A stretch of 64,000 bases of DNA. It comes from Candidatus Thiodiazotropha sp. (ex Myrtea sp. 'scaly one' KF741663). GTDB lineage: Bacteria; Pseudomonadota; Gammaproteobacteria; Chromatiales; Chromatiaceae. Shown here piece after piece: positions 7,435 to 49,196 of this stretch. The position numbers and the translations under genes were made by a program. The notes under the pieces are model-generated. The model was not told the DNA's origin and did not search any database. It saw nothing but the letters and a program-made list of their open reading frames with translations. Every line of letters begins with the position of its first letter. Position 1 is the first letter of the stretch. Where the stretch lies: contig JAHXIQ010000004.1 in assembly GCA_025655555.1 (NCBI GenBank), positions 186,001 through 250,000 of the forward strand. Direction: 5' to 3'.

Positions 7435-7505
7435 TCATATACTCAGTGTCACAGGCGGATGTCGTAGGGCGTGCTAATGTGTAGAGGGAATTGAGAAGAG
7501 CAGAC

Positions 7506-8240: not shown

Positions 8241-8246
8241 TTAATC

Positions 8247-28858: not shown

Positions 28859-29326
28859 TTCGCTTGAGGACTTACTCATCACGCTGTGAGTACTGAGTAC
28901 CTGTTGTATAAATACCTGCCAGATAGCATCAGGCTCCCATACTGAAAGGATAGTATTTCGTGCCTCGGTGAAAGCCCAATCCTTCTCGATCACATGGAAA
29001 AGAGCCATGAACACGGAGACCCGCTTATTGGCGGCACAATGAATGAATGCCCGGCGTTCCCTCTGTATGTTAAAGATCCGGCAAAAGGCGTGAAACTGAT
29101 CGATTTCAGGTGCCTCGAAGCTGACTGGCAGATGGATATAGTCGAGACCCCGGGATTCGATGATCGATTGTTCATCAGCAATGGCGTAGGGCGCATCCCC
29201 AAGCCCGAGATTGATCACCAGTTCGAAACCTGCCTGGCAGATGGCCTGCAACTCCCTCTCATCAGGTTGCCCACCAGTGGCAAGAGTGGGAGAGAGTTGT
29301 CTGAAATTGTAGATTGACTCAATCAT
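28850..29326 (-). CDS. Protein-tyrosine-phosphatase-fold protein with a shortened P-loop
   Basis: A 158-residue protein related to the DUF442/dual-specificity phosphatase group. The active-site-like loop is FIHCAANKRVSVF, which has Cys, four residues and then Arg (CX4R), one residue shorter than the classical CX5R loop. The preceding INLGLGD and LPVSFEAP also fit the fold. A phosphatase role is probable; substrate unknown. It converges with the GGDEF/EAL gene and lies 36 bp downstream of the haloacid dehalogenase-like gene. Confidence 0.78.
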   Translation of the reverse strand: MIESIYNFRQLSPTLATGGQPDERELQAICQAGFELVINLGLGDAPYAIADEQSIIESRGLDYIHLPVSFEAPEIDQFHAFCRIFNIQRERRAFIHCAANKRVSVFMALFHVIEKDWAFTEARNTILSVWEPDAIWQVFIQQVLSTHSVMSKSSSESS

Positions 29327-29362
29327 TTGACAGCAATCTTCCTTGGCATGAGCAGCCCCGCT

Positions 29363-30052
29363 TTATGTACCTCGCCTGAGATAGCGGGCAATCCGTTCTT
29401 CGAGTTCGATCAGACTACTGATCGTGATTGTGGGCTCAACGCCCCAAGGATCGAACAGGGCTTCAGGGCTGCGCTGCAGCCAGGCGGCTTTCATACCGGC
29501 AGAGACCGCACCAATGACATCGAAGGGATTGCTTGACACCAGCCACGCCTCGCCGGCCGATGCGCCTGAGACTCTCAGAAAGTGGCAATAGACGGCGGGG
29601 TTTGGTTTGAATGACTTCAGATCATCAACACTCACCACACCAAGGAAAGTGTCGAGAATGCCAGCCGAGGAGAGTAGTGTGGTGACCGCATCGGCACTGC
29701 CGTTGGAAAAGGCAAAAAGACGATTCCCGCCGCCGCTCAGCAATGCCAGTCCCTCGCTGACATCCTCAAAAGGTGGCAGTATCCGGTATTCCGCCAGTAA
29801 AAGGTGCTTTTGCGCCTCTGTCAGTGGTGTTCGGTAATACTCACAAGTGTAGTTAAGCGCATCCTTGGTACAGACGGAAAAGCTCTCGTAATGCTGCATC
29901 AAACCCCGCCGAAATGCATACTCCAACTGCTTATCACGCCAGGTCTGGGAGAATGCCTCCGCCTTGTCGCCGACATGGGTGTGTAGGGCCTCAACCACTC
30001 CGTGGGTATTGATTAAAGTTCCGTAGACATCGAAAGCAAGGGTAACCGGCAT
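29363..30052 (-). CDS. HAD-superfamily type II haloacid dehalogenase-like hydrolase
   Basis: A 229-residue HAD hydrolase. Motif I is FDVYGTL with nucleophile Asp8, motif II is AFSNGS, motif III is LKSFKPNPAVY and motif IV WLVSSNPFDVIGA. The set matches L-2-haloacid dehalogenases, but many relatives act on other substrates. A degenerate copy of its N-terminal coding region lies near 32066-32133, so the gene or its neighbourhood has been duplicated. Start is the ATG at 30052. Confidence 0.87.
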   Translation of the reverse strand: MPVTLAFDVYGTLINTHGVVEALHTHVGDKAEAFSQTWRDKQLEYAFRRGLMQHYESFSVCTKDALNYTCEYYRTPLTEAQKHLLLAEYRILPPFEDVSEGLALLSGGGNRLFAFSNGSADAVTTLLSSAGILDTFLGVVSVDDLKSFKPNPAVYCHFLRVSGASAGEAWLVSSNPFDVIGAVSAGMKAAWLQRSPEALFDPWGVEPTITISSLIELEERIARYLRRGT

Positions 30053-30252
30053 GTTGTCGTTCTTCTGGTTATTGAGTGCGCAAACGTTCGCGATGGAGTT
30101 GCCTCAACAGTAGCACCAAGGCAGTGGTGTTGAAAGTCGAACACACAAGTTGCCAAGTCAGGTGGAACTTGATCTGTTGTCGTTTTGTAGTGTGAGCAGG
30201 GCTGAAAACAGCATATAAAATGGCAAACGCTGTTGGTTGAGGTGGCTATGGA

Positions 30253-30642
30253 TTATTGTGCAGCTGTCTCTGCCGCACTTGACGTTGCACTGCCCCGGTT
30301 TTCTGCAGGAGGTTTTTTTCCTTGTCTGGAAAGCTTGCCTGCGCAGAGGGGAGGCCCCTTCATGGTAAACATGATCACATTCATTTTCTGCTGTGGTGCA
30401 AGGGCCTTATTGTATTTTTGTGTCGCAGCGGTGTCTTTCGCTGCGGTGGCGTAGAAGAAGTTGAATTCATCTTCATTGAACCGGATTAGTGCCTCTTTTC
30501 CCACGCATTCACAAAGCTCCGCTCCCATGTTGTTTCGTTGGTTATCTGAACAGGCTTTTTTGTACTGTTCCAGCGTGGCAGCTTCGATGGATCCGATGCA
30601 GCTCATTGCGAATAGAGTCATTTTGAGTGTAGAAAGTTTCAT
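30253..30642 (-). CDS. Small secreted hypothetical protein
   Basis: A 129-residue protein with an N-terminal signal peptide (about residues 1-21, ending SIEA), a single central domain with three cysteines (C32, C44, C46 by position in ACSD and LCECVGKEA) plus a later CAG, and a charged low-complexity tail. I do not recognise the family. It is probably periplasmic. It stands alone with 200 bp of non-coding DNA on each side. Confidence 0.65.
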   Translation of the reverse strand: MKLSTLKMTLFAMSCIGSIEAATLEQYKKACSDNQRNNMGAELCECVGKEALIRFNEDEFNFFYATAAKDTAATQKYNKALAPQQKMNVIMFTMKGPPLCAGKLSRQGKKPPAENRGSATSSAAETAAQ

Positions 30643-30894
30643 GATGTCTCCCCGGGAAAAATGATTGCTATCTCATAGATGTTTTTTATGTGCTGAATTC
30701 TGCGTGGTAACACTGAGAAATGTAGCACAGTATCAAGTGTGCTGAAGGGTGTTGTTGAATCGGGCAGGGTCGAGCTCTATATGTCTTTATGATGGGTTTC
30801 GGTATGTGGTGGCGTATCTATAAATGGGTAGAAGGAAAAGAGATCTCGAGACGCCTGTTCAATAGTAAGAATCCTCAACCGTCACCATATCTAA

Positions 30895-31278
30895 TCAATG
30901 ATGGCTAATGCCCTCACCCCGTTGATGATCGAGCAGAAAACTGATGCCGGTCAGTATTACACCGAATACAACTATGGCGAACAGCACGAGAAAAAAGGGA
31001 TCCTCAGTAAATAGATAAAAGGTCATGAGGCAGAAGAGAAAAAATAGTCGTGCCAGCAAGGTGGTGCCATAGAGCTCCATGATCCGTCGCCGGATCACCT
31101 GCACCACGATAATTCCCAGACCGATCATGAACATGCCCAGTGCGCGTAACATGATGGCGGAGTAGTCTCCATTGGAGAGCATCAGCTCAGCGGAGAGCTT
31201 TGGCGCGGAGATGAGGGCAAGACCGCCCAGCCAAAGATAAGTGGCGAGATAGTAGAGACTGAGCCGTGTTGTGTTCAT
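30895..31278 (-). CDS. Small four-helix membrane protein
   Basis: A 127-residue membrane protein with about four helices (around 7-24, 43-62, 72-92, 95-115) and a polar C-terminus rich in His. It resembles small DUF-type inner-membrane proteins but I cannot name a family. No conserved catalytic residues. It lies downstream of the SnoaL-like gene on the same strand with a 71-bp gap. Confidence 0.65.
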   Translation of the reverse strand: MNTTRLSLYYLATYLWLGGLALISAPKLSAELMLSNGDYSAIMLRALGMFMIGLGIIVVQVIRRRIMELYGTTLLARLFFLFCLMTFYLFTEDPFFLVLFAIVVFGVILTGISFLLDHQRGEGISHH

Positions 31279-31349
31279 GCTGATCCCCCTTTGATATCTT
31301 TACCAAATCGCTGCACGATAACTTGGAAGAGATGATTGTCGATGCAGGA

Positions 31350-31694
31350 TCAGGTGATACTTCTAGTATCAAAGATTAGCAGGATCTCTGAGATCTGTTG
31401 TCGGCGAAATCTGAAGCATTGAGCGATGCGTACACGCTGATGCGGTTTGATATAGTCGTAAAACAGTGCGACCTCGTCATCGCTATCGGTGATGCTCAGC
31501 AGTTTGTAGTTACTGGTTTCGGGGGGAGTGTTGCGTAAGCTTTGCAGATAATCCTCTGCCGAAGAGAACTGATGGAAGGGACCGTCGAGGATAAGATCAG
31601 CTGTGAATAGCCGGCTCAGCCCATCAATATCCCCAGCGCAGAAATAACGAAGATACTCCAGGGCTGTCTCTCTGTTGGTCATGGGCTTATTCAT
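31350..31694 (-). CDS. NTF2/SnoaL-like protein
   Basis: A 114-residue protein with the cone-shaped NTF2-like fold: an N-terminal helix (ETALEYLRYFCAGDIDGLSRLF), then DLILDGPFHQF and beta strands ending QISEILLIFDTRS. Members bind or convert small molecules; function here is unknown. Its first codons overlap the last codons of the truncated CopZ-like gene by 8 bp. Confidence 0.75.
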   Translation of the reverse strand: MNKPMTNRETALEYLRYFCAGDIDGLSRLFTADLILDGPFHQFSSAEDYLQSLRNTPPETSNYKLLSITDSDDEVALFYDYIKPHQRVRIAQCFRFRRQQISEILLIFDTRSIT

Positions 31695-32070
31695 AGAAGC
31701 AGGTGAATTTCATCATCGGGGGGAAATCTTTCAGACAAGAACGAGCCGATGGATTTTGTGAAGAACAGGCGCAGGTTTGTTTCTCCGTTTCAGCCATGAC
31801 GAAGGCTTTAGCTTCCGAATTGTCTCTGGCCTCTTTCCGCGTGATGCCAAAGCAGTAGCAGACGAGTGAATGGCCAGTCTTCTCTTTGACACCGACTATC
31901 GTGAGCAGTACCGATTTCTCTAACACGGATTCATCGAGTTCGAAGTAGATCACGACACCCCCGGGATCATCGCAGAAGTAGTAGGCCTGATCCTTCTCGT
32001 CCCAGCGCCAGGGTGATTTAATATGGTGCTTGATCGTTGATTGGGGCACTGAAGAATAATTATTTTCCAA
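31687..32070 (-). pseudogene. CopZ-like gene, 5'-truncated copy
   Basis: The 127-residue frame matches residues downstream of about 26 in the complete CopZ-like protein at 35637-36062 almost throughout (STIKHHIKSPWRWDEKDQAY versus STIKHHIKAPWRWEGKSQAY; later LVCYCFGIT and ETEKQTCACSS). It lacks the N-terminal CCSGSS...CPTNGK metal-binding part, and the only start is a TTG at 32070 in unrelated sequence. The last nine residues also differ. It is probably a broken duplicate, though a short protein retaining the C-terminal CxC and cysteine pairs could still be made. Confidence 0.7.
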
Positions 32071-32133
32071 CTGCTTATCACGAGGTCAGGGAGAGAGTCT
32101 CCACCTTGTCGCCTATGTGGGTGTGTGAGGCTT
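32066..32133 (-). pseudogene. Remnant of a haloacid-dehalogenase-like gene
   Basis: Bases 32066-32133 align with 29922-29993 in the intact HAD gene (both have TCCAACTGCTTATCACG, then AGGTC..GGGAGA, then CCTTGTCGCC and GGGTGTGT) with a 2-bp gap and scattered changes. In the intact gene this encodes the segment around HTHVGDKAEAFSQTWRDK. Here the frame is broken and joined to the truncated CopZ-like copy, marking a recombination junction. Confidence 0.6.
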
Positions 32134-32222
32134 TTCAGTTTGGTTTCATAAAACCCTGCTAGTTTAGCTGAAAACAGGGATAACTCCCCGCACCAACTCT
32201 TGAGTGATTGAAAAACTGTCAG

Positions 32223-33509
32223 ATGACCACAGGAATACTTGCTTTGATCATATTGGGTGCGATTCTCACGCAGGTGGGTTTGGTAGTGCTGATTGGTTTT
32301 GTTCGACAACGGCATCAATACCTTGAATTGGAGAAACGGCAAAATCGTTTACAGAGTATCGATGATATCAATGATTTCACTCGGCGGTTAGATACACATC
32401 CCAATCAGGTAGATTCCACTTGGCAGGGGTTCAAGGCGTTTAAGGTGAAGCGCCGGGTCTATGAGGATAAGAACCATTCCATCTGTTCTTTTTACCTGGT
32501 GCCTATGGATCAGGTGGCACTGCCACCCTTCAAGCCTGGTCAATTCCTGACCTTCAAGCTTTCCATGGAGGATGCGGGAACGGGTGAGTCCAAAAGCCTG
32601 ATCCGCTGTTACTCACTGTCGGATCGGCCCTATGCAGACCACTATCGGATATCCGTCAAGCGTGTGCCCGCGCCAGACGATCAACAGGATGCGCCGCCCG
32701 GACAAGCGTCGAATTTTTTGCACGATCAGGTGCAAGAGGGCGACCAGCTGATGGTCAAGGCCCCATCGGGACACTTCCACCTGGTCGAGGAGCCGCTGCT
32801 GCCTCTGGTGCTGATTGCAGGCGGTATAGGTATCACACCTATGCTGAGTATGCTCAACACTCTGTTGGAAAGTGGTGTTGAACGTGAGGTCTGGCTCTTC
32901 TATGGCGTTCGCAATAGCAGTGAACTGATTATGAAAGCGGATCTGAAAAAGCAGGCTGAGATGTATCAACATTTCCATCTCCATCTCTGCTACAGCCGTC
33001 CCGATGAGCAGGATGTGATGGGTATCGACTATCAACATGCCGGCAGAGTCGATGTGCCGTTGCTGCGGGAAACTCTCAAGCTGGGTCGATACCAGTTCTA
33101 TGTCTGCGGTCCCAAAGCGATGATGGAGAGTATTGTCCCCGGGCTTGAAACCCTGGGCGTGGATGCTGGTGATATTCACTATGAATCGTTCGGTCCTGCA
33201 TCGTTATTAAAAAATGAAAAGCCCAAGTCCGGGACGACGGATGCCCAGGTTGAAGCGATGAACGTCAATTTCACTGAGAGCGGCAAGCGGGTCGAGTGGG
33301 ACCCGAATGCGTCCTCACTGTTGACGTTTGCCGAGACACAGGGCATCGAAGTGGAGTCTGGCTGCCGGGCAGGCAGCTGTGGTTCCTGTCAGACAGCCAT
33401 CGAGTCGGGTGAGGTTGAATACAGTCAGGAACCGGATGCCGATATTGAGCCGGATCATTGTCTGTTATGTATCGCCATACCCAAGGGCGACCTGAAGCTG
33501 GCCCTGTAG
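32223..33509 (+). CDS. Membrane-anchored FAD/NAD(P)/2Fe-2S oxidoreductase
   Basis: A 428-residue reductase. One N-terminal membrane helix (about residues 5-23) is followed by a cytoplasmic ferredoxin-reductase module (FAD site around FKPGQFLTFKL and RCYSLSDRP; NAD(P) site LIAGGIGITPMLSM; CGPKAMM) and a C-terminal plant-type 2Fe-2S domain with CRAGSCGSC and a later C in CLLC. The ATG at 32223 is preferred to the TTG at 32208. It lies 9 bp before a four-helix haem protein that itself overlaps an eight-haem cytochrome gene, so it probably feeds electrons from NAD(P)H into the membrane. Confidence 0.88.
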   Translation: MTTGILALIILGAILTQVGLVVLIGFVRQRHQYLELEKRQNRLQSIDDINDFTRRLDTHPNQVDSTWQGFKAFKVKRRVYEDKNHSICSFYLVPMDQVALPPFKPGQFLTFKLSMEDAGTGESKSLIRCYSLSDRPYADHYRISVKRVPAPDDQQDAPPGQASNFLHDQVQEGDQLMVKAPSGHFHLVEEPLLPLVLIAGGIGITPMLSMLNTLLESGVEREVWLFYGVRNSSELIMKADLKKQAEMYQHFHLHLCYSRPDEQDVMGIDYQHAGRVDVPLLRETLKLGRYQFYVCGPKAMMESIVPGLETLGVDAGDIHYESFGPASLLKNEKPKSGTTDAQVEAMNVNFTESGKRVEWDPNASSLLTFAETQGIEVESGCRAGSCGSCQTAIESGEVEYSQEPDADIEPDHCLLCIAIPKGDLKLAL

Positions 33510-33518
33510 AGGTACACC

Positions 33519-34097
33519 ATGGAACGTTCACTCATCAGTAAAGAGATCCTGCCGTTTGTCTTCCTGTTCGGCTCATTGGTATTGACGACAGTTGTCGTTG
33601 ATGCTCTGTTGCATCAGTGGGATCTTGTCTGGATCGGACGTTGGCTGGGCATACCGGGGACGCTCCTGATTCTGTTGTCATTTCTCTATTCACTGCGCAA
33701 GCGAAAAAAGATCAGTTTTGGCAAACCGAAGAATCTGCTGGCTCTGCATGAAACCCTGACCTGGGTTGGTGCGCTGATGATTCTGGTACACGCGGGCATT
33801 CACATCTACGCGATCCTCCCCTGGCTGGCATTGCTGGCCATGCTGGTCAATGTCATCAGTGGTATGACCGGAAAATACCTACTCGACCGTTCACGCAGGT
33901 TTCTGGCCGACAAAAAGGCACACTACCAGACGCAGGGGCTGAGTGACGAAGAAGTCGAGAAGCGGGTCTTCTGGGATGCCACAACCTTCGATGTGATGAA
34001 GAAGTGGCGCGTTGTTCACTTGCCGATCACACTGGCGTTTGTCGTATTGGGGCTTGCGCATATCCTGAGTATCTTTTTGTTTTGGCAGTGGCGATGA
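33519..34097 (+). CDS. Four-helix di-haem b membrane protein
   Basis: A 192-residue integral membrane protein with about four helices (10-30, 44-58, 77-112, 165-188). Two helices carry histidine pairs exactly 14 residues apart: H77/H91 and H167/H181. This spacing is the hallmark of two b-haems stacked across a membrane, as in ferric-reductase and NOX-type proteins. H95 is an extra histidine. It sits between a cytoplasmic flavin/2Fe-2S reductase and a periplasmic eight-haem cytochrome, overlapping the latter by 4 bp. Haem content is inferred from spacing, not demonstrated. Confidence 0.8.
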   Translation: MERSLISKEILPFVFLFGSLVLTTVVVDALLHQWDLVWIGRWLGIPGTLLILLSFLYSLRKRKKISFGKPKNLLALHETLTWVGALMILVHAGIHIYAILPWLALLAMLVNVISGMTGKYLLDRSRRFLADKKAHYQTQGLSDEEVEKRVFWDATTFDVMKKWRVVHLPITLAFVVLGLAHILSIFLFWQWR

Positions 34098-34897
34098 AAA
34101 ACAACACTATCATGCTTATTGTGGCGGCCAACCTTGCCGTACTGATTTTGCTGGCAATAGCTGTGCCTCACCTGATGATCACGCCGGGTAAGCCGATCGA
34201 GGCCCATGCCGAGTTTGCAACGGACTGTTTTGCCTGCCATACATCATTCATAGGCAGCACGCCAGAGAAGTGTATCGCCTGCCACATGGTAGAAGAGATA
34301 GGTATCAAGACCACAAAGGGAGAGGTGATCGATAAGGAAAAAAAGAATGTCGCCTTTCACCAGAAACTTGTTGAGAACGATTGCGTAGCCTGTCACAGCG
34401 ATCACAAGGGTGTGATGGCATTTCGGCCCATCAGCCGGTTTTCTCACGATTTGCTCGAACAACCTTTGCAGGAGCAGTGCGACAGTTGTCATCTCAATCC
34501 GGGAGATGCGCTGCATATGAAGATCGAAGGCAATTGTGCGCAGTGCCACAACCTGGAGAGCTGGACACCCGCCACCTTCGACCACGATGACTATTTTCGT
34601 TTCGACCGGCACCACGATACAGAATGTGAGACCTGCCATATCAGCAATGATTACGGCAACTACACCTGTTATGGCTGTCATGAACACTCTCGCTCAAATA
34701 TCCGCGAAGAGCACTATGAGGAGGGTATCTATGAGTACGAAGTGTGTGTCGAGTGCCACCGCAGCGGAGATGAGGATGAGGCGGAACGAATCTGGCGATC
34801 AAAATATAGGGAAACAGGTCGCGCCGGACAATACAATCAGGAGCACTACAGGGAGAAAAGATACAAGCATCGTGACTATGACGATGATGATGACTGA
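34094..34897 (+). CDS. Eight-haem periplasmic cytochrome c (cytochrome c3/c7-like)
   Basis: A 267-residue protein anchored by one N-terminal helix (about 5-24). Eight CxxCH motifs start at C45, C60, C97, C129, C148, C178, C192 and C218, so eight c-haems are expected. Extra histidines between motifs (H38, H89, H104, H118, H141, H164, H173 and others) can serve as sixth ligands. After the last haem comes a charged tail ending in five aspartates. ATG at 34094 overlaps the previous stop (ATGA). Likely the electron outlet of the three-gene system; no outer-membrane partner is encoded nearby. Confidence 0.92.
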   Translation: MKNNTIMLIVAANLAVLILLAIAVPHLMITPGKPIEAHAEFATDCFACHTSFIGSTPEKCIACHMVEEIGIKTTKGEVIDKEKKNVAFHQKLVENDCVACHSDHKGVMAFRPISRFSHDLLEQPLQEQCDSCHLNPGDALHMKIEGNCAQCHNLESWTPATFDHDDYFRFDRHHDTECETCHISNDYGNYTCYGCHEHSRSNIREEHYEEGIYEYEVCVECHRSGDEDEAERIWRSKYRETGRAGQYNQEHYREKRYKHRDYDDDDD

Positions 34898-35120
34898 GCG
34901 GCTGAAAAATACAAAATACGTTGTAATATTCAGCTTGATTTCACCTCACACCCCTAAGCTGTATACAGACGCAATCAGTCTGAAACCCTCAATAGAGTAA
35001 GTCTTTAGCGGGCGTTTGGTTTGAAAGATGAATGTCACACTTCAGCCATACATCCTGCAAGATCGACATCTGTTGGGATTCATGATCGTAGGATAGATCC
35101 TGGACCTTAGGAGGTGCGCT

Positions 35121-35450
35121 ATGCACAAATACGATAACTTATTAAGAAACATCACAGTGATACTGTTCGTTATCATTATGGCGTCTCTTTTTGTGGGGGC
35201 GCTGGCGGGTGTGTTCGAATCACCCTTCCTGGCGATCTTTTGGTATCTCGCACTCATGGGTATCACGATGATGATACTGATGACAGCTGTGTTGGCTATT
35301 GTCTATGCAGTTGGATTTACGGTAAAGAGGTATCAGCGGATAATGAGTTTCAGGAGCGGAGAGGCTGCCGGACTGCCAACTGCTTGCAATGCGAGATATA
35401 CGAATAATGGAATTTCTTCAAATTATATATTCCAGGATACGGTGAAATAA
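35121..35450 (+). CDS. Small two-helix membrane protein
   Basis: A 109-residue protein with two membrane helices (about 10-35 and 38-68) and a polar C-terminal tail. No recognised family. A strong Shine-Dalgarno (AGGAGG) precedes the ATG, and a clear rho-independent terminator follows at 35495, so it is probably a real, separately transcribed gene. It may have some link to the redox cluster upstream (223 bp away), but this is not shown. Confidence 0.65.
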   Translation: MHKYDNLLRNITVILFVIIMASLFVGALAGVFESPFLAIFWYLALMGITMMILMTAVLAIVYAVGFTVKRYQRIMSFRSGEAAGLPTACNARYTNNGISSNYIFQDTVK

Positions 35451-35494
35451 TCGTGTTATTGGAAGGCATCGGCAAACAAAATTAACCAATCTCT

Positions 35495-35527
35495 AAACCC
35501 ACTCCAGTCAGAAGTGGGTTTTTTTAT
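35495..35527 (+). terminator. Rho-independent terminator
   Basis: AACCCACT (35496-35503) pairs with AGTGGGTT (35513-35520) and is followed by a run of T. It lies 45 bp after the small membrane protein gene. Confidence 0.85.
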
Positions 35528-35636
35528 GTAAGATATCAACACAACTCCTGGCGATTAAGTGATGCCTTTTCCATCGAAGATACACCAGGGCTATCTATTG
35601 GCTAGTCGTGGATTTGCTCGTAGAATCAGGTGAGTT

Positions 35637-36062
35637 TCATGAACGGGGAAAATCTTTCAGGCAGCAACGGCCGGAAGGGTTTCGTGAAGAACAGGCGCAG
35701 GTTTGTTTTTCCGTTTCATCCATGACGAAGTCCTTGGCTTCTAAATTATCTCTGGCTTCTTTCCATGTAATGCCAAAGCAGTAGCAGACGAGTGAATGAT
35801 CGGTCCTCTCTTTGATGCCCACTGTTGTCCGCAGGGCTGATCTCTCTATCACGGAGTTATCGAGTCCAAAGTAGACCACGTCGCACTCGGGATCATCGCA
35901 AAAATAGTAGGCCTGACTCTTCCCTTCCCAGCGCCAGGGTGCTTTGATGTGGTGCTTGATCGTTGATGAGGGCACCGAAGTGTATATCTTTCCGTTCGTT
36001 GGACAGCGATGCTTATTAGGGAAGGCTCTATCAGAGCTAGAGCCGGAACAGCACTTGGACAT
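35637..36062 (-). CDS. CopZ-like Fe-S/zinc metallochaperone-type protein
   Basis: A 141-residue soluble protein. The N-terminus has CCSGSS and CPTNGK (a zinc-type site), and later come FCDDPECDVVYF, the LVCYCFGIT block and CACSSRNPSGRCC, which resemble the N-terminal domain of the Archaeoglobus CopZ family with a 2Fe-2S and zinc site. The ATG at 36062 follows GGAGG and gives the native N-terminus. A shorter duplicate lies at 31687-32070; the two are about 80% alike at DNA level by eye and lie in the same orientation, bracketing the redox cluster. Confidence 0.8.
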   Translation of the reverse strand: MSKCCSGSSSDRAFPNKHRCPTNGKIYTSVPSSTIKHHIKAPWRWEGKSQAYYFCDDPECDVVYFGLDNSVIERSALRTTVGIKERTDHSLVCYCFGITWKEARDNLEAKDFVMDETEKQTCACSSRNPSGRCCLKDFPRS

Positions 36063-36100
36063 GGACTTTGACTCCTCCAGAGGAAGTCTGACTGATTTAC

Positions 36101-36136
36101 AGCTCGTCATTCCGGCGTATGCCTGAATGACGAGCT
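36101..36136. repeat. Short palindromic repeat
   Basis: AGCTCGTCATTC (36101-36112) pairs with GAATGACGAGCT (36125-36136), with GGCGTATGCC between. The CGTCATTCC/GGAATGACG core is like common dispersed bacterial palindromes. It lies upstream of the CopZ-like gene. Confidence 0.75.
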
Positions 36137-36276
36137 AAGCTGACCTCTCCTGGTTATTACGAATAGTGATGTGTATCTGTTACTTATTGGGTTAATGATA
36201 GTTCAAGAGATACCTAGAAGCCTGAAAGTTTCACCAGACTGATTCAGGCCCTTCTCACTGTTGGTTATGGAATGAG

Positions 36277-36819
36277 TCATCCAATATTAACACTCGTCTC
36301 CACAGGAACCCCCGTGCGTAAGGTCTGCAGATTCACGCAGCTGTGTTCCGCAGCAGCGATGAGCTTTTTCATAAGCTTGGGATCTGTCTGATCATCCGCT
36401 TGGATATCAATATGGCATTTCATTTGCTGGAAACCGACCTGTACTTTTCGGTCAACCATCAAAGTGCCACGCACATCAATCTTGGCTGCAACTACGACTT
36501 CAAGAGATTGAATCTTTACGCCCAGACGATCAGCAATGATTCGCAGTGTTGAGTCAAGACAGGCAGCAAGAGCCGCACAAAGCATATCACCTGGATTCGG
36601 TGCATCGTGGTAACCGCCTACGGCAGAGTGAATGCCGAAGTGTAACGGTACGCTGGTATCCGGCTTGCCGGGATGAACCGTGCCGTGGAATGGATCGGTA
36701 TCCACACCCCCCGAAGTTCTTGCCTGATCATTGATAAGTGCCTCTTCAGGGTTAACCAGATATCGCTTTTGTAAAGGCGCCTGTCGATCGCGAACATTGA
36801 GTTGAGTTTGCGTGTTCAT
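36277..36819 (-). CDS. OsmC/Ohr-family thiol peroxidase-like protein
   Basis: A 180-residue OsmC-fold protein. The two conserved cysteines are visible: one in DMLCAALAACLDS (about residue 81) and one in AAEHSCVNLQTL (about 161). Family members reduce organic hydroperoxides. It is somewhat longer than typical OsmC, with an N-terminal extension (NTQTQLNVRDRQ). Alone on the minus strand, 166 bp from the methyltransferase gene. Confidence 0.88.
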   Translation of the reverse strand: MNTQTQLNVRDRQAPLQKRYLVNPEEALINDQARTSGGVDTDPFHGTVHPGKPDTSVPLHFGIHSAVGGYHDAPNPGDMLCAALAACLDSTLRIIADRLGVKIQSLEVVVAAKIDVRGTLMVDRKVQVGFQQMKCHIDIQADDQTDPKLMKKLIAAAEHSCVNLQTLRTGVPVETSVNIG

Positions 36820-36985
36820 TATTCTAGCCTCAGTAATCTTGGTTTAGGTTTATTCAACCCGACTGTGAATTGGTACCACATCAGCCGAAATTGAATAGGC
36901 CTCAATTATTTGTGAATCAGGACCACTTGATCTCGACTTTGTGCTGAGTGAAGGCATCACGAGTGTGGTTCCTCAGGCGAATGAA

Positions 36986-37834
36986 TTATCCCACCAGTTT
37001 CTTCTTGGTCGCCACAACCTCCAGATATTCGGAGGGGACTACCATGGTGCCGTCTTTAGCCTTATTAAACTTCCCAATCAGACTCAGCAGGTCAGTACTT
37101 AATTTTTCGCCTGTAGTCTCATCAAGTGCCTCGTAGGCCTTCAATACCGGACCGTAGTAGGTGGAAAACAGATCGAGCCAGTGCTGAGGTGATTGGTAGC
37201 GAAAGACAAACTTGCGTGGTTCAATATGCAGACTTGATGTCTGCGGCCCCAGGTTTTGTTGCAGAAACTCCTGTGTTCCCCAGGCAGCAGGAGAGTTGAT
37301 GCCGGATGGTGGTGGTACGTACTGACCGACCGTCTTGAATAGCTGACCGATAAAGCCTGCCGGGGTCCAGTTTGCGAGACCGATTTTTCCACCCGGCTTG
37401 CAAACCCGAATCAACTCTGATGATGCTTGAGTCTGATTGGGTGTAAACATTACGCCAAATGTGGAAACCACATTATCGAAGCTGTTTTCAGGGAAAGGTA
37501 ATGCCTCGGCATCCGCCTGCTGGTATTCGATCGCCAGTCCGTCGATCTCAGCCCGTTGCTGGGAGTGGTTCAACAGTGCCGGTATATAATCAGTGGAAAC
37601 CACCTTGCAGAACCGCCGTGCGGCGGCCAAAGCCACGTTTCCATTGCCTCCAGCTACATCCAGGACGCTCTGACCGGCATGCAGATCCATGGCTTCGCAC
37701 AACTGCTCGCCTGAGATCTGTAGCGTTACCCCAACGCGGCTGTAGTCACCTGAACGCCAGGCAATGTTTTGCTTGGTCTTGATCGCATCATAGTCGGGTA
37801 TGGACTGCTGAGTCGTTTGAGCTGCACGAGTCAT
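36986..37834 (-). CDS. Class I SAM-dependent methyltransferase
   Basis: A 282-residue Rossmann-fold methyltransferase. SAM site motif I is VLDVAGGNGNVALAAA (about residue 62), followed by VVSTDYIP, QADAEALPFPENSFD and IRVCKPGGKIGLANW. The ATG at 37834 follows GGAGAAG. Substrate unknown. A wHTH-TPR regulator gene lies 146 bp upstream on the same strand, reading toward it, so it could be co-transcribed or controlled by it. Confidence 0.85.
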   Translation of the reverse strand: MTRAAQTTQQSIPDYDAIKTKQNIAWRSGDYSRVGVTLQISGEQLCEAMDLHAGQSVLDVAGGNGNVALAAARRFCKVVSTDYIPALLNHSQQRAEIDGLAIEYQQADAEALPFPENSFDNVVSTFGVMFTPNQTQASSELIRVCKPGGKIGLANWTPAGFIGQLFKTVGQYVPPPSGINSPAAWGTQEFLQQNLGPQTSSLHIEPRKFVFRYQSPQHWLDLFSTYYGPVLKAYEALDETTGEKLSTDLLSLIGKFNKAKDGTMVVPSEYLEVVATKKKLVG

Positions 37835-37980
37835 AATCTTCTCCAGGGTAATTAAATAAATGTACTGTTGTTGGTTTTGATCCAACTGGAGGTAATGCTA
37901 GAAAAGCCATGCGTACCCCGCTTGGGGAAGGGGTGGTGTTTTTATGGGGATTGTGTGTGGATCGTCAGGCGACCTTGTTG

Positions 37981-39513
37981 TTATGACTGAGTGGCTAGGG
38001 CTCGTAACTGCTTGCCCAGTTTGGTTGAAATCAGGGAATCGATCTCAAGTTCGGACAGGTCCGGTTTGATTCTGTAAGCGTCATTCAGTACCGTCAATGC
38101 GGTTTGGGTTTCTTTGCAGCACAGTAAAACAGCAGCATGCACGACCCGTGACAGATAGGTTCGATCATCCCGCTGGCAGGCAAGCTCGGCCTGGGCCCGT
38201 GCTGCATCCAGGTCATTGTTCTGCATCAGGGCCAGAGCCAACAGTGCTCCCCAGATCGAGAGTCGGCTGTCCAGTGGACTGATGTCGATGCCCCGAGCCA
38301 GGTGCTTGATGGCGAGCTTCAGTTGTCTGTCAATCAGATAGGCAGAGCCGAGAGCAGACCAGGCCTGGGCGTTCGCCGGGTTAAGCTCAATAGCGTGTTT
38401 GAGTATGGGTAGAGATCGATTGACCAGACCCAGATCCGCCAGTGCACAGCCGGCAAATCCAAGTACGGTTGAATCCATTTTTTCCAGTTGTAATGCACGC
38501 TCTGCAGCCTCGATGGCTTCTGCTTTTGTCTGCTCACGCTGGTTAAGCAGGCCTACCCGATGGCCCAACGCCAGAATCAGCGACAGATAAGCAGGGGCCA
38601 GTGCAAAAGCCGGATCCTGCTCCGAGCTTCTGCGCAACAGCGCAGCAGCTTCCTGGAAAGTATCCAGATGCCACCCTTTCAATGCTAAAATACCACTGGC
38701 CTCCAGATATAACTCCCGGGCACTGGATGATCCTTCATCGGTGCAGACGCTATGGTAAATAGCCCGGTTCAGCTGCGGTTCAAGCTTGGATAGGATATCG
38801 ATGACAATTCCATCGATACCACCACTGATATCATTCATGGAATGCCCGAATTGTCCCGCCCACAAACGAAAGCCGGATTTTGCATTGATGAGTTGTATGT
38901 TTATGCGGATCTGGTCGTCCATTAACTGAACATTGCCCTCAAGCAGATAATCTATACCGGTCTCCTCATGGATCTGCCGGGCAGTTGGCATGATGTCGAG
39001 ATGAGCATAATCGGATGCCTGTGCGCTTATTTGCAATAACGGGATGCGGGTGAGTATGGTCTCTAAATTGGTAACCACCCCCTCAGCAAAAATATTGATA
39101 TCAGTGGTACCGAAAATACATTTAAGTGGTAATACTATTAATGACGGTTCAGTCTGTTTTGCCTGTTTGTGTGTTGATGGGGGTTTTGCTGTGAAAGATT
39201 GTGGCGGGTCTTGGCTAACATCTCCAATGAAACTAAAGCCACGCCCACGTACGGTCTTGATATAGAGTTGCTTATCCCCACTATCACCTAGTGCCTTGCG
39301 AACGGATTTGATACAGCCTGACACGGTGGCATCGGAGACAATTCGACCGCCCCACACAGCAGCCATAAGGTCATCTCGGCTGAATAGAGTATTAGGATTT
39401 TTTAGAAAGTGAACCAGAAGGTCGAATACCAGGGGCTCAACTTCGACCTTTACGCCATTTCTGCGTAATTCGTAGCGATCATTGTCAATTTCAATATTTG
39501 CAAACCTGAACAT
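37981..39513 (-). CDS. Winged-helix transcriptional regulator with TPR-type C-terminus (CadC-like, soluble)
   Basis: A 510-residue protein. Residues 1-100 are an OmpR/ToxR-type winged helix (RFANIEIDNDRYELRRNG, then KTVRGRGFSF). A TolB-like beta/alpha segment (about 120-230, with FAEGVVTNLETIL and GIDYLLEGNVQ) and TPR-like helices (about 270-490; LELNPANAQAWSALGSAY type repeats) follow. No transmembrane helix is visible between them, unlike CadC. Start ATG 39513 begins at the conserved FRF segment. The target genes are unknown; the methyltransferase lies directly downstream. Confidence 0.82.
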   Translation of the reverse strand: MFRFANIEIDNDRYELRRNGVKVEVEPLVFDLLVHFLKNPNTLFSRDDLMAAVWGGRIVSDATVSGCIKSVRKALGDSGDKQLYIKTVRGRGFSFIGDVSQDPPQSFTAKPPSTHKQAKQTEPSLIVLPLKCIFGTTDINIFAEGVVTNLETILTRIPLLQISAQASDYAHLDIMPTARQIHEETGIDYLLEGNVQLMDDQIRINIQLINAKSGFRLWAGQFGHSMNDISGGIDGIVIDILSKLEPQLNRAIYHSVCTDEGSSSARELYLEASGILALKGWHLDTFQEAAALLRRSSEQDPAFALAPAYLSLILALGHRVGLLNQREQTKAEAIEAAERALQLEKMDSTVLGFAGCALADLGLVNRSLPILKHAIELNPANAQAWSALGSAYLIDRQLKLAIKHLARGIDISPLDSRLSIWGALLALALMQNNDLDAARAQAELACQRDDRTYLSRVVHAAVLLCCKETQTALTVLNDAYRIKPDLSELEIDSLISTKLGKQLRALATQS

Positions 39514-41845: not shown

Positions 41846-42469
41846 CTATATTCTTTCCTGATCTCTCAATACCTTCACTTGAAACAGTGCATTTCTTTCT
41901 TCTTCCTCCAAAGCATTTTCAATAAAGCGAATCGTATTGCGGTAGCGGGGAATGATGTTGTAGCGCAAAGCATTCACTCGTTTTTGTGCCTTGCGCTGTT
42001 CGGCGATAAGGCGGCTGAGGCTCATGGAGACCTCCCCCATTTTCGACAGCAACAGGGCGGCTTCGGCAAAGTGCTGACGGGTTTCATCGAAACTGGGATC
42101 GGTGCCGAGCAGACCGACGGGATTCAGGGGCATCAATTCGCCGGTGACGGAAGGGTATTCAACACCCAGATTACGGCGGGGGAGTATCTTGAGGTCAAGC
42201 ACCGGCTTGACGCCCAGTGCTGCCTGGTGCAGCGAGCGGCTGGTCATGCGTAGCTGCACCATGCTGAGCCAATGGTAGGCTTGCTTGATCGCATTGTGGG
42301 CTTTGTCTCGGATCTCCCGGTATTCACCGATGCGCTGGTAGACCAGCCGGGTCAGCAGTTCCCGCTTGCGTTCAAGCAGGCTATGTCCGTCCTCCAGGAA
42401 CTGCAGCTGCCGTTTGAGGTTGAGCAGCGTGTTCTTGGTTGGAGCTGCTTTTAGCCTGGTGCCTGTCAT
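41846..42469 (-). CDS. atpD: V-type ATPase subunit D (rotor shaft)
   Basis: A 207-residue coiled-coil subunit. The N-terminus (PTKNTLLNLKRQLQFLEDG) and the C-terminal helix (VNALRYNIIPRYRNTIRFIE) match the V/A-type subunit D, which forms the central shaft within A3B3. Last gene of a nine-gene operon on the minus strand; overlaps atpB by 4 bp. All nine V-type symbols here follow the A/V nomenclature, not the F-type. Confidence 0.93.
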   Translation of the reverse strand: MTGTRLKAAPTKNTLLNLKRQLQFLEDGHSLLERKRELLTRLVYQRIGEYREIRDKAHNAIKQAYHWLSMVQLRMTSRSLHQAALGVKPVLDLKILPRRNLGVEYPSVTGELMPLNPVGLLGTDPSFDETRQHFAEAALLLSKMGEVSMSLSRLIAEQRKAQKRVNALRYNIIPRYRNTIRFIENALEEEERNALFQVKVLRDQERI

Positions 42470-43848
42470 TCGCCGCTCTGCCGGTGGTACTTGGCCATCT
42501 CGGTTTCGGTGACACGGGTGAGAGCTTGTGGCGGGAAGGATGAGAGAAGATTCCAGGCTAGATTGAGAGTCTCCTCAATGCTGCGGTCTTCATCTTCACC
42601 CTGGCGCACGAAGCGCTCTTCAAAGGCGTCGGCGAATTCCAGGTAACGGCGGTCACGGGCTGAGAGTTCGTCAGCACCGATGATGGAGGCCAGGTTACGT
42701 GTCTCCAGCGCCCGGGCGTAGAGGGCATAGAGCTGGTTGGAGACGTGGGGATGGTCTTCCCGGGTGAAGTCCTTGCCGATGCCGTCCTTCATCAGTCGTG
42801 AGAGCGAGGGTGAGATATGCACCGGCGGATAGATACCTTGGTTGTGCAGCTCACGACTCAATACGATCTGACCCTCGGTGATGTAGCCGGTGAGGTCTGG
42901 GATCGGATGGGTGATGTCATCGCTGGGCATACTCAGCACCGGCACCAGGGTGATGGAGCCGTGCCGGTCTTTGATACGGCCGGAACGCTCGTAGATCTCC
43001 GCCAGATCGGAGTAGAGATAACCCGGATAGCCTTTACGCGCCGGTACGTCACCTTTGGCGGTGGCCACTTCGCGTAGGGCCTCGGCGTAGTGTGTCATGT
43101 CGGTCATGACTACCAGCACGTGGCGATCGAGATCGAAAGCGAGGTACTCGGCGGCGGTAAGCGCCATGCGCGGCAAGGTGAGCCGTTCCACCGGCGGATC
43201 GTCAGCCATGTTGACAAACATCACCACGTTACCCAGTACGCCGGAGGAGGCAAACTCCTCCTGGAAGAAACGGGCATCCGCATAGGAGACACCCATGGCG
43301 GCGAAAACCACAGAGAAACGACTGTCGTCATCAGGCAACTTGGCCTGGCGTACGATCTGTGCGGCGAGACGGTTATGGGGCAGGCCGGAGGCGGAGAAGA
43401 TCGGCAGCTTCTGACCGCGCACCAGGGAGTTGAGCCCGTCGATGGTGGAGACACCGGTTTGGATGAACTCTTTCGGATAGGTGCGGGCGGCGGGATTGAA
43501 AGGTGCTGCGTTGATGCTGCGCCGCAAGCTGGAGACGATGGGGGGACGGAAGTCCCGGGGCTCACCCAGGCCGCTGAAGACACGACCGAGGATCTCCGGC
43601 GAGAGGGCGATCTCCACCGGCTCGTCGAGAAAACGCACCCAAGTGTTTTCCATGTCGAGATCATCGGTCCCCTCGAAGACCTGGATCAGGACCTCTTCGT
43701 CGGAGCTGAGAATGACCTGGCCGTTGCGGGTATTTCCTTTCTGGTCACGGATGCGTACCCGGTCGCCAAAGGCGATGCTGGGTACATTGCTGACGGTTAG
43801 CAGACCACCGCGGGCGGCGGATGCGGTTCGGTACTCCTTGGCGCTCAT
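42466..43848 (-). CDS. atpB: V-type ATPase subunit B (non-catalytic)
   Basis: A 460-residue regulatory nucleotide-binding subunit. It has the P-loop-like segment KLPIFSASGLPHN, which is degenerate as in all B subunits, plus the conserved RGYPGYLYSDLAEIYERSG type block, and LVPVLSMPSDDITHP. It forms the hexameric head with subunit A. It overlaps atpA (upstream) and atpD (downstream) by 4 bp each. Confidence 0.95.
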   Translation of the reverse strand: MSAKEYRTASAARGGLLTVSNVPSIAFGDRVRIRDQKGNTRNGQVILSSDEEVLIQVFEGTDDLDMENTWVRFLDEPVEIALSPEILGRVFSGLGEPRDFRPPIVSSLRRSINAAPFNPAARTYPKEFIQTGVSTIDGLNSLVRGQKLPIFSASGLPHNRLAAQIVRQAKLPDDDSRFSVVFAAMGVSYADARFFQEEFASSGVLGNVVMFVNMADDPPVERLTLPRMALTAAEYLAFDLDRHVLVVMTDMTHYAEALREVATAKGDVPARKGYPGYLYSDLAEIYERSGRIKDRHGSITLVPVLSMPSDDITHPIPDLTGYITEGQIVLSRELHNQGIYPPVHISPSLSRLMKDGIGKDFTREDHPHVSNQLYALYARALETRNLASIIGADELSARDRRYLEFADAFEERFVRQGEDEDRSIEETLNLAWNLLSSFPPQALTRVTETEMAKYHRQSGE

Positions 43849-45647
43849 GCTGTCTGCTCTCCCCGTTGTGCATATTCGGAATGGATGGCCTTGAAGTCCT
43901 GCAGTGCTTCTTCACGAAAGGCCTTGAGCTGGTCGATCTGGGAGGAGTCGTAGAGTTCCTTGCAACGACGCAGCCTGGCCAGTACTGGCATCTCCGAGAG
44001 TTCTTGTACCGGCACGCCGAGTTCGATCAGGGCGGCGCCTTCGTCATACACCGTGAGGATCAGATCGAGCAACATGAATTGCTTTTCGGGTGAGGAGAAG
44101 GTGTCCACCGGATCGAGGGCACTTTGCTGTAGCACGCCCTCTTTGATCAGCGTGGCGCCCTCCAGCACCCAGCGCTGGGCGGAGGAGAGGGCCTCGGGAC
44201 CGACCAGGTTAACGATACGCGACAGCTCGGCATCCCGCGCCAGCATGGCCAGGGCCTGTCCACGGCGTTTTTCCCAGCCGCGGTCGATGTTCTCGTGCCA
44301 CCATTCGGCGGCGGTGCCCACATCAGCGGAGAAACTGTCGACCCAATCGATGGCCGGATAGTGTCGGGCGTCGGCTAGTTCCTTGGAGAGCGCCCAGAAG
44401 GTCTGGATGATCTCTTTAGTGTGGCTGGTGACCGGCTCCGAGAAGTCACCGCCAGGTGGTGAGACGGCGCCGATGAGGGTGACCGAGCCTTTACCGCAAT
44501 CCATGGTCTCGACCCTACCGGCACGCTCATAGAAGGCTGCCAGGCGGGAGGCAAGATATGCAGGATAGCCCTCTTCCACCGGCATCTGCCCCAGACGGCC
44601 GGAGACCTCGCGCAGGGCTTCGGCCCAACGGCTGGTGGAGTCGGCCAGCATCACCACGTCGAAGCCCTGGTCACGGTAGTATTCGGCGATGGTGATACCG
44701 ACATAGATCGATGCCTCGCGCGCTACCACCGGCATATTGGAGGTATTGGCGATGAGCAGGGTGCGGTCCATCAGGGGACGGCCGGTGTAGGGATCCTTCA
44801 GTTTGGGAAAGCTGTCGAGTACGTCGACCAGTTCATTGCCGCGCTCGCCGCAACCTACATAGATCACGATATCCGCATTGGCCCAGCGGGCCACCTGATG
44901 CTGCACCACTGTTTTACCTGCACCGAAGGGGCCGGGCACGGCACACTTGCTCCCCTTCAGAAGAGGAAAAAAAGTATCGAGGATACGCTGTCCCGTGATC
45001 AATGGATCGATACCGTTGTCGCGACTCTGGTAGGGGCGGGGTTTTCGTACCGGCCAGCGGTGGAAGAGCTTCAGGTGATGGACGTGGCCGTGGCGGTCGC
45101 GCACCTGACCGATGGTCTCCTCCAGATTGTAATCGCCCTCCGGCGCCAGCTCGATCAGTTCACCCTCGATATCGGGTGGCACCATAATGCGGTGCTCCAC
45201 GGTCTCGGTCTCCTGCACCGTGCCGATCCTGGCGCCGCCGATGATCGGCATGTTGGGTTCCAGGTTCTCGGTGGGGACGAAACGCCACAACTTCTCCCGG
45301 TCCAGAGGGTCCGGGCTGAGGCCGCGGGGAATCTGGTCGCCCGCTTTGAGAAACATCTCCTCCAGCGGACGTTGCACACCGTCGAAGATGCCGCCGATGA
45401 GTCCCGGGCCGAGCTCCACCGATAGGGGGTGCCCCAAACCTTCTACAGGTTCCCCCGGTCGGACCATCTCGGTCGACTCGTAGATCTGCACGATGGCTTT
45501 GTCCCCCTCCAGGGCGATCACCTCGCCATAGAGTCCAAGGCTGCCGATGCGTACCTGCTCGCCGTTGTGCACACCGGGCAGCCGGATGGTGACAATGGGG
45601 CCGTTAATCTCGAGGATGGTGCCTTTTCTGCTTTCTTTATTGATCAT
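43845..45647 (-). CDS. atpA: V-type ATPase subunit A (catalytic)
   Basis: A 600-residue catalytic subunit. Walker [12 protein letters not shown] lies near residue 238; [35 protein letters not shown] and [12 protein letters not shown] follow in the usual order. The A-specific non-homologous insert is present before the P-loop. Length is normal. Hydrolyses or makes ATP with rotary coupling to ion flow. Overlaps atpB by 4 bp. Confidence 0.97.
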
Positions 45648-45658
45648 TTGTATCCGCC

Positions 45659-46291
45659 TTAAAGCGTCTGTCCATCACCGATGGGAGGCAACAGCCGCTC
45701 GACCAATGCCTGATGAATATTTCGTTCCAGGCGGGAGAGCCTGCCTTCGAAGGTATGGTCTATCTGTACCCGGCTATCGGCGGTCGTCACCAGGCAGCCA
45801 CCGACGGTTTCGATGCTCTTGTCGAGTAGCTCAAACTGTTTTCCGGGAACCAGGTCTGCCGTCAGCGCTTCCCACTGAGGTTTTAGTCTGGACAGGTCGT
45901 TGGCGTTGACAGAGACCTGTAACTTATTCTCTTCGATGTGTGCGGCAGCTTGTTTCAGTAGTGCTTGCAGAAAATCAAAGTAGCCATTCTCATCCTCCAC
46001 CAGTACCTGCATGCGTCCCTGCAGACGGTCGATTACGATCTGGACCAGATTCCAGCGCATGTGGTCCATCTTGGCACGAAGCTTCAGTTCATCGGCCTGC
46101 ACTTTGCGCAGATAGGCGCGATCGGCCAGAGATTTGGCCAGCAGGGTCTCTTTTTCTTCTTTGAGGTGTAGCTTTTCGCTGGCTTCACGCAGGATGTTTT
46201 TGCGTCCTGCCTCTGCTCGGTTTTGGCACTCCTCGGCCATCATTTCGGCTCTTTCGAGGATTGCTTTCTCCAGTGCTTCAACCTGATTCAC
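45659..46291 (-). CDS. atpE: V-type ATPase subunit E (peripheral stalk)
   Basis: A 210-residue peripheral stalk protein. The N-terminal half is a charged coiled coil (ALEKAILERAEMMAEECQNR) and the C-terminal half holds a globular domain that contacts the head (GGCLVTTADSRVQIDHTFEG). Together with the G/H subunit it holds the head against rotation. 11 bp upstream of atpA. Confidence 0.87.
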   Translation of the reverse strand: MNQVEALEKAILERAEMMAEECQNRAEAGRKNILREASEKLHLKEEKETLLAKSLADRAYLRKVQADELKLRAKMDHMRWNLVQIVIDRLQGRMQVLVEDENGYFDFLQALLKQAAAHIEENKLQVSVNANDLSRLKPQWEALTADLVPGKQFELLDKSIETVGGCLVTTADSRVQIDHTFEGRLSRLERNIHQALVERLLPPIGDGQTL

Positions 46292-46339
46292 TGTCTGTCT
46301 CCTAGGTCGATGGGTATCCGCATAGCGTTCACAGGATAT

Positions 46340-46660
46340 TTATCCACCGGTCAATTTCTTAAGTTGTGCATCCAGCTCACATTGGAAGCTTTCGGGATCA
46401 TGCAGTGAAGGGACTTCCGATAACACGATACGTCCGCCCTCACTGCGTATCTGGTCCAGCATCTTAGAACCCACATGGTTGACGGATTGTTCGATGATCA
46501 GCAGGGCCCGTTGTTTCTCTTTTTGTAGTTCAGAGAGCAACCGGTCCAACTGGTAACCATCGGGATCAGTCAGTGTTTCAAAACCGATCAGCCGGAAACC
46601 ATCGGTCAACGCGGGACCGCCGATAAAGATATTTCTGACTGGATGGGCGGTGTCACTCAT
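46340..46660 (-). CDS. atpF: V-type ATPase subunit F
   Basis: A 106-residue subunit with a Rossmann-like alpha/beta fold (FIGGPALTDGFRLIGFETL; ALLIIEQSVNHVGSKMLDQI). In V-type enzymes it binds subunit D at the base of the shaft. Located 7 bp after atpK. Confidence 0.85.
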   Translation of the reverse strand: MSDTAHPVRNIFIGGPALTDGFRLIGFETLTDPDGYQLDRLLSELQKEKQRALLIIEQSVNHVGSKMLDQIRSEGGRIVLSEVPSLHDPESFQCELDAQLKKLTGG

Positions 46661-46667
46661 GGTGTTA

Positions 46668-47105
46668 TCAGATCCTGTCCAGCAACAGAATACTCATGAC
46701 CAGACCATAGATGGCGATACCTTCAGCCAGACCCAGGTAGATCAGTGTACGCCCGAAGATCTCCGGTTTTTCAGCCAGCACAGCCAGAGAGGCGGCGCCG
46801 ATGGGCCCCACGGCAATGCCTGCGCCAATGGTACTCAAGGCAGTAGGTATACCAACGCCGATGATGCCGAGACCCAGCCCGATGGAAATCTCACCACCGC
46901 CGGTAGCCGCTTCAGTGGCAGCCATCACCTCGCCCATACCCATGAAGATCAGAGCGGCCTGCGCAACGACGAAGACAACCAGGTTGACGCCGATAGTTGG
47001 CTTGAACCAGGGCCTGGAAATCTTGGCCGGTTGCATCTCCATGACGATGCCGGTAATGATGATGCCGGCAATCCCCAGGGTCATTACAGCGATAAGCCAA
47101 TACAT
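46668..47105 (-). CDS. atpK: V-type ATPase subunit K (proteolipid, c-ring)
   Basis: A 145-residue membrane protein made of two helical hairpins (four helices, about 5-21, 38-56, 80-110, 119-142). Only one ion-binding carboxylate is visible, Glu128 in LGLAEGIAIYG; the equivalent position of the first hairpin carries Gln49 (VVAQAAL). This is the V-type arrangement and predicts fewer ions per ATP than in F-type rings. Whether it moves H+ or Na+ cannot be decided from sequence. Preceded by a 150-bp gap with an inverted repeat. Confidence 0.9.
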   Translation of the reverse strand: MYWLIAVMTLGIAGIIITGIVMEMQPAKISRPWFKPTIGVNLVVFVVAQAALIFMGMGEVMAATEAATGGGEISIGLGLGIIGVGIPTALSTIGAGIAVGPIGAASLAVLAEKPEIFGRTLIYLGLAEGIAIYGLVMSILLLDRI

Positions 47106-47139
47106 AGCATGCTCCTCTTTTGATTAATTGTGAGTTTTG

Positions 47140-49133: not shown

Positions 49134-49196
49134 GGAGACTCCCCATGTTTGATGCATGTGTTGTCACTGTCATTGCCGAGAGAGGATTTATGTGTT

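Follow-up and report, generated by a model that had tools for sequence, protein, structure and literature searches.

A predicted inner-membrane electron conduit of a flavin/2Fe-2S reductase, a candidate di-haem b protein and an octahaem cytochrome c in Candidatus Thiodiazotropha

In a 64,000-nucleotide stretch from the genome of a Candidatus Thiodiazotropha species (hereafter the window; G000:C4:186001-250000, from a genome of 3.98 Mb in 9 contigs), three genes, which we call A, B and C, lie head to tail on the + strand. We propose, with a probability of roughly 0.6, that this trio specifies an inner-membrane electron conduit, in which electrons pass from NAD(P)H to the reductase A, through the haems of the membrane protein B, to the multihaem cytochrome C and on to periplasmic cytochromes. 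The proposal is founded on the observed domain content, the conservation of candidate ligands, the order and co-occurrence of the genes, and the homology that links B with inner-membrane proteins of the porin-cytochrome cluster 3 (PCC3) type. Gene A (32223..33509; 428 residues, ATG at 32223, stop codon ending at 33509) is separated by 9 bases from gene B (33519..34097; 192 residues, ATG at 33519, stop codon ending at 34097), and gene C (34094..34897; 267 residues) has its ATG at 34094 and so overlaps B by 4 bases. The overlap, the coordinates and the residue numbers given by an earlier, sequence-only reading were all correct when the open reading frames were rechecked. Promoter-like sites were not above those of shuffled sequences (2 versus a shuffle mean of 3.5); terminator-like sites were in excess (8 versus 2.7 in shuffles), yet they were located inside open reading frames.

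Protein B has histidines at positions 32, 77, 91, 95, 135, 167 and 181, and two pairs of these, H77/H91 and H167/H181, are each 14 residues apart (H-X13-H). In an alignment of relatives, H32, H77, H91, H95, H167 and H181 are identical in every covering row (80 or 81 of 81 rows), while H135 is kept in only 7 of 80; on the strength of this invariance we rejected a chance spacing of the histidines, and the two pairs picked out by the sequence-only reading stand. Also invariant across the alignment are S114, G115 and G118, which form an SGxxG motif on helix 4, and helix 5 carries W163-x3-H167-x13-H181, with L73 standing on helix 3 where the motif has tryptophan. Structure models of B contain five long helices (residues 2-33, 44-64, 70-94, 99-138 and 158-188), the fourth being interrupted at 129 in the second model; judged by their sequence, all five are probably transmembrane. 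The loop between helices 2 and 3 is basic and, by the positive-inside rule, should be cytoplasmic, which would set H77 and H167 towards the cytoplasmic side of the membrane and H91 and H181 towards the periplasmic side. B is predicted to be a di-haem cytochrome b. It had no Pfam match above cut-off, and its profile found no sequence relative in the PDB. Assignment to the prokaryotic cytochromes b561 was rejected: PF01292 gave no match up to E 1, and hhalign put the probability of a relation to four b561 proteins of trio loci at 0.8%.

Protein A was read earlier as a membrane-anchored NAD(P)H/FAD/2Fe-2S reductase, and its Pfam matches (NAD_binding_1, 6e-21; Fer2, 2e-12; FAD_binding_6, 4e-5), together with its hydrophobic anchor, bear this out. 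A single N-terminal hydrophobic helix (at about residues 5-27) is followed by positive residues, which would place the protein on the cytoplasmic side; then come the FAD/NAD(P) module and a C-terminal, plant-type 2Fe-2S domain. The best PDB match of the FAD/NAD(P) module (residues 64-326) is a flavohaemoprotein (phmmer 5e-49), a likeness which suggests NADH as the donor. Cysteines C381, C386, C389 and C416, which we take by comparison with ferredoxins to be the 2Fe-2S ligands, are invariant in 73 of 73 rows, and C413 is present in 72 of 73.

The third protein, C, has an N-terminal hydrophobic stretch as its anchor, eight CxxCH motifs (at 45, 60, 97, 129, 148, 178, 192 and 218; the count of the sequence-only reading was right) and an aspartate-rich C-terminal tail. 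Among complete C open reading frames, 70 of 77 have eight CxxCH motifs and the other 7 have 10. Nine further histidines (38, 89, 104, 118, 141, 164, 174, 198 and 207) are invariant, a number that would suffice for bis-histidine ligation of all eight haems. C matches Cytochrom_CIII, Cytochrom_c3_2 and Cytochrome_C7 in Pfam. Membership of the NapC/NirT (CymA-type) family was rejected for want of a PF03264 match up to E 1, and C is unlikely to act as a catalytic octahaem reductase, since no such family was matched and the nine invariant non-motif histidines are enough for bis-histidine ligation. The acidic tail (window positions 34850-34894) recurs in relatives; at least five of the last eight residues are aspartate or glutamate in 46 of 77 complete sequences, with a run of 19 aspartates at locus L004, and it perhaps serves in docking or metal binding.

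The trio recurs as a set in many bacteria of the sulfur and iron cycles. Our comparisons drew on a set of 93 genomes (the window's own and 92 relatives), a scan of named records that gave 396 relatives, and even samples of the class and the phylum, all of which overlap in part; gene starts in the alignments were chosen by alignment to the genes of the window. Full-length B was found in 20 of the 93 genomes and C in exactly those 20; A matched at E <= 1e-40 in 19 of these 20 and in none of the other 73. One of the 19 (G043) has a broken A fragment adjoining B, plus a separate A homologue of 692 residues, and the single B- and C-bearing genome lacking an A match (G048) is one contig, 98% complete. 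In the best 80 of the 396 named-record loci (L063-L142, a choice favouring close relatives) C follows B in 79, the contig of the remaining one (L095) ending shortly after B, and A or part of A precedes B in 72, in 63 of which it is complete (at least 380 residues). The 8 loci counted as lacking A include L137, where a contig edge prevented a judgement; this locus and L125 were left out when the 8 were re-examined. Spacing is also conserved: the 4-base overlap of B and C is reproduced exactly in 67 of 79 loci, and A ends at most 22 bases before B in 69 of 72. The gene order, which the sequence-only reading had suggested checking, is thus conserved.

Hosts named in these records include Sedimenticola, Thiocapsa, Thiocystis, Allochromatium, Thiodictyon bins, Beggiatoaceae, Amphritea, a Gallionellaceae bin, Rhodospirillales, Terasakiella, Propionivibrio, Candidatus Magnetaquicoccus and SAR324; the nearest named record found (L063) is a Candidatus Thiodiazotropha symbiont of the clam Monitilora ramsayi, with a B that is 98% identical. 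The distribution of B is widespread but patchy, with 8 of 369 genomes in the class sample and 24 of 398 in the phylum sample. Of the 22 genomes of the genus that were searched (G000-G021), 8 carry B and C, in at least three different gene neighbourhoods, which suggests repeated loss or transfer.

Further evidence comes from the PCC3-type family. The B query also matched, with E values of 1e-6 to 1e-10, a protein of about 300 residues in related genomes, including the window's own (G000:C6), and a profile comparison of B with this family gave a probability of 98.6% (E 1e-15) over helices 2-4. H77, H91, H167, H181, W163 and the SGxxG motif are invariant across B and the PCC3-type family combined, and C resembles the cytochromes that adjoin the PCC3-type protein (27-30%).

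In the conduit model, for which we infer haem binding, topology, contacts between the proteins, direction, donor and final acceptor, A would be tethered to the cytoplasmic face by its N-terminal helix and would take two electrons from NAD(P)H onto FAD, its 2Fe-2S domain then handing them on singly. In B they would enter on the cytoplasmic side, at a haem b ligated by H77 and H167, and leave by a periplasmic-side haem b ligated by H91 and H181. C would be anchored next to B with its haem domain in the periplasm, where it would gather the electrons on its chain of eight bis-histidine haems and deliver them to c-type cytochromes. Such outward flow is favoured by the membrane potential, which is negative inside.

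The principal alternative is that B and C make up the functional unit and that B trades electrons with the quinone pool, the scheme put forward for the PCC3 protein by He et al. (2017, PMC5566968), A being an optional second input or engaged in some other task. We regard this as unlikely, although several observations speak for it and against our own proposal. While C follows B almost without exception (also in 25 of 25 loci of a further set, L151-L175, from partly the same genomes), A is absent beside B in several loci, a piece of any length being found in only 17 of those 25. Five genomes (G048, G093, G094, G096 and G097) have B and C and no A match at E <= 1e-20; another (G098) carries A elsewhere and not beside B and C, and G095 holds only a weak relative of A in which the 2Fe-2S domain comes first. 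Only short remnants of A are left at L017 (in G048), L166 and L168, and L127 keeps the anchor and the 2Fe-2S domain without the FAD/NAD module, so that at least once the 2Fe-2S part has lasted longer than the NAD(P)H module. Moreover, structural look-alikes of the modelled B include quinone-reactive cytochromes b, and He et al. draw PCC3 electron flow to the quinone pool, albeit with no quinone-binding test reported in their account of these proteins.

Since A is not universal and persists as remnants at some loci, the core of the system is B with C, and some lineages must draw on other donors or on quinol. Against the quinone alternative stand the 72 of 80 loci with A or part of it, mostly a few bases upstream of B, and the close tracking of B and C by A matches (19 of 20 genomes versus 0 of 73). 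The mechanism put forward by the sequence-only reading therefore stands in part: the anatomy, the interpretation of the haem pairs and the conserved gene order are upheld, and a transmembrane conduit is the simplest model, whereas the evidence does not extend to NAD(P)H as the only donor, and by-passing of the quinone pool must be treated as a hypothesis, given that A is missing or a remnant in several genomes with B and C.

It might also be that the trio supplies the SHP/DHC pathway, as a source of electrons other than quinol. Ten neighbour proteins, including members of the DHC, SHP and b561 families, were checked by Pfam, and the fetched flanks of the 80 loci hold DHC in 17, SHP (DUF1924) in 10 and b561 in 17, against about 0.2 loci with DHC expected by chance (an estimate from DHC density). 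DHC, SHP and b561 are described as one operon, probably fed by quinol through its own cytochrome b (PMC2909971), to which the trio would add a second supply. In the pyrite transcriptome of Allochromatium vinosum, Alvin_0020 to Alvin_0025, annotated as dihaem cytochromes, b561, DUF1924, a membrane protein and a two-component regulator, are up (PMC11267869); the trio could not be matched to any locus tag in the portion of that report open to comparison. However, 63 of the 80 loci have no DHC in the fetched flanks (some of which are short), and genome-wide the link is weak despite the locus counts, with DHC in 18 of the 20 genomes with B and C versus 33 of the 73 others. Neither DHC nor DUF1924 was matched in the window's own genome or in G031, and since the window's genome is without them DHC/SHP cannot be the general acceptor. 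We consider this explanation very unlikely, and take the DHC/SHP genes near the trio as a lead to the final acceptor. The irc genes of Sideroxydans were also considered, and no link to the trio was made from the relevant parts of the reports (PMC12442390, PMC8788666, PMC10734462).

Inward flow, in which periplasmic sulfur, iron or extracellular donors would feed electrons by way of C, B and A into the reduction of NAD(P)+ for carbon fixation, would suit the sulfur oxidisers and purple sulfur bacteria among the named hosts (Thiodiazotropha, Thiocapsa, Thiocystis, Beggiatoaceae), and likewise the Gallionellaceae bin, and the PCC3 relative has been discussed as an electron-uptake system, but we think it very unlikely: on general bioenergetic grounds it would run against the membrane potential, with two transmembrane haems making no evident use of proton-motive force to reach the potential of NAD, and no porin or second multihaem cytochrome was seen among the open reading frames of 29000-38000 (by inspection, with Pfam on some neighbours).

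Beyond the conduit itself, a more specific picture can be drawn, to which we would give slightly less than even odds: a widespread, NAD(P)H-driven electron exporter by-passing quinone, that is, a split NOX-like reductase that would discharge into an octahaem cytochrome in place of oxygen or iron, a short sister of the inner-membrane half of PCC3 in which a five-helix di-haem protein is paired with a flavin/2Fe-2S reductase. If this is true, PCC3 conduits may also be wired to pyridine nucleotides. In this connection we observed that 6 of the 12 PCC3-like loci fetched (L056, L057, L058, L059, L061 and L062) also encode a pyridine-nucleotide oxidoreductase of the 4Fe-4S/FAD type, about 435 residues long and seemingly anchored in the membrane (one was profiled), a hint of PCC3 coupling to NAD(P)H or ferredoxin.

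Most electrons reaching bacterial periplasmic cytochromes are thought to arrive via quinol. Direct transfer from NAD(P)H to a periplasmic multihaem cytochrome would, if confirmed, be a separate route that dissipates proton-motive force, and could serve redox balancing or carry reducing power beyond the membrane in sulfur-oxidising symbionts, purple sulfur bacteria and others. Through its sequence homology, B (192 residues) with its octahaem cytochrome also makes a small, tractable model for the PCC3-type family, whose two haems b are a prediction, and for the question of whether that family uses quinone.

Elsewhere in the same genome, contig C6 holds a PCC3-like locus (L051) in which the protein of about 300 residues has two cytochromes beside it. 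Their genes, at 2624-7117 and 7153-8748 of that locus, both on the - strand, encode a giant repeat cytochrome (1497 residues, 61 CxxCH motifs) and a 21-haem cytochrome; the PCC3-like loci of relatives reach 67 CxxCH motifs in a single open reading frame. A large downstream gene for a putative outer-membrane barrel is present in 8 of the 12 PCC3-like loci and was not seen in the stretch fetched from the window's own genome; these barrel genes were named by position and appearance, and the one profiled gave TPR matches and weak barrel matches. Around the trio in the window, a direct repeat of 407 bases, 81% identical, occurs on both sides (31648-32054 and 35575-35980). Its copies belong to two CopZ-like (zf_CopZ) genes on the - strand, the left one truncated, and the trio may have come to be framed by a duplication. 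Cation-efflux genes, CDF-like by appearance, were found near the trio in 10 of the 80 loci by sequence clustering (e.g. L142, L106 and L113). Further along the window of this gammaproteobacterial symbiont, at 42466-49157 on the - strand, lie genes for V/A-type ATPase subunits of the catalytic/regulatory and the 116 kDa-like families.

How, then, does the trio compare with known systems? NOX and ferric reductase (FRE) proteins are alike in outline: they draw electrons from an FAD/NAD module and carry two HX13H pairs, spread over two helices. They differ in that the trio's reductase is a protein of its own, which also has a 2Fe-2S domain, and in that its likely outlet is a multihaem cytochrome and not O2 or Fe3+. 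The NqrF protein, like A, combines a membrane anchor, a 2Fe-2S domain and an FAD/NAD module, but its order is anchor-Fer2-FNR, whereas that of A is anchor-FNR-Fer2, and A falls below the NqrF cut-off (TIGR01941, 94.6 bits versus 295). CymA/NapC proteins, and the Ohc, Nhc and Tmc complexes of sulfate reducers, similarly have a multihaem cytochrome that is anchored at the inner membrane; the matches of C are to class III, c3 and c7 cytochromes, not to NapC/NirT. The sequence-only reading had pointed to CymA-, Nox- and FRE-type proteins for comparison, and the ferric reductase transmembrane domain (PF01794), just as PF03264 for C, gave no match up to E 1. In the SHP-DHC-cytochrome b561 operon a membrane di-haem b likewise feeds periplasmic c-type cytochromes, but its b561 belongs to Ni_hydr_CYTB and is unrelated to B by profile comparison (0.8%).

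The closest comparison is with the conduits described by He et al. (2017, PMC5566968). In their description the PCC3/PCC4 inner-membrane protein has five helices, SGXXG and WX3HX13H, with two haems b proposed by analogy with ferric reductases and cytochrome b. Like B, the homologous PCC3 protein carries HX13H on helices 3 and 5 and SGxxG on helix 4, and a similar multihaem cytochrome adjoins it. The differences are that the PCC3 protein has about 300 residues while B has 192 and is without the long cytoplasmic insert; that WX3 precedes each HX13H in PCC3/PCC4 and in B only that of helix 5; that C has 8 haems, whereas PCC3 periplasmic cytochromes have a median of 21; and that the trio, unlike PCC3, is led by an NAD(P)H/2Fe-2S reductase gene. 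Nor does a complete PCC3 cluster surround the trio, there being no porin or extracellular multihaem cytochrome gene beside it: by inspection, no other open reading frame of at least 80 residues in 29000-38000 is rich in CxxCH, and no barrel was found among the neighbours scanned with Pfam.

The same paper devotes one paragraph, in the section 'Other multiheme cytochrome c', to shorter five-helix HX13H proteins encoded beside multihaem cytochromes and, in most clusters, another redox protein, mostly with no porin, and these unnamed clusters share with the trio the short HX13H protein, the multihaem cytochrome and the further redox gene. In that account the membrane-protein gene lies downstream of the cytochrome gene, whereas in the trio it lies upstream, and most of the short proteins are said to have no significant homology to those of PCC3/PCC4, whereas for B we detected such homology. 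The sequence-only reading did not recognise in the trio a system already described. That holds insofar as the exact trio is described in no title or abstract among the best-ranked papers of our literature searches on it or its family; the kind, however, is already on record, and, going by their paragraph, the trio is an unnamed variant of it, apart from the order of its genes.

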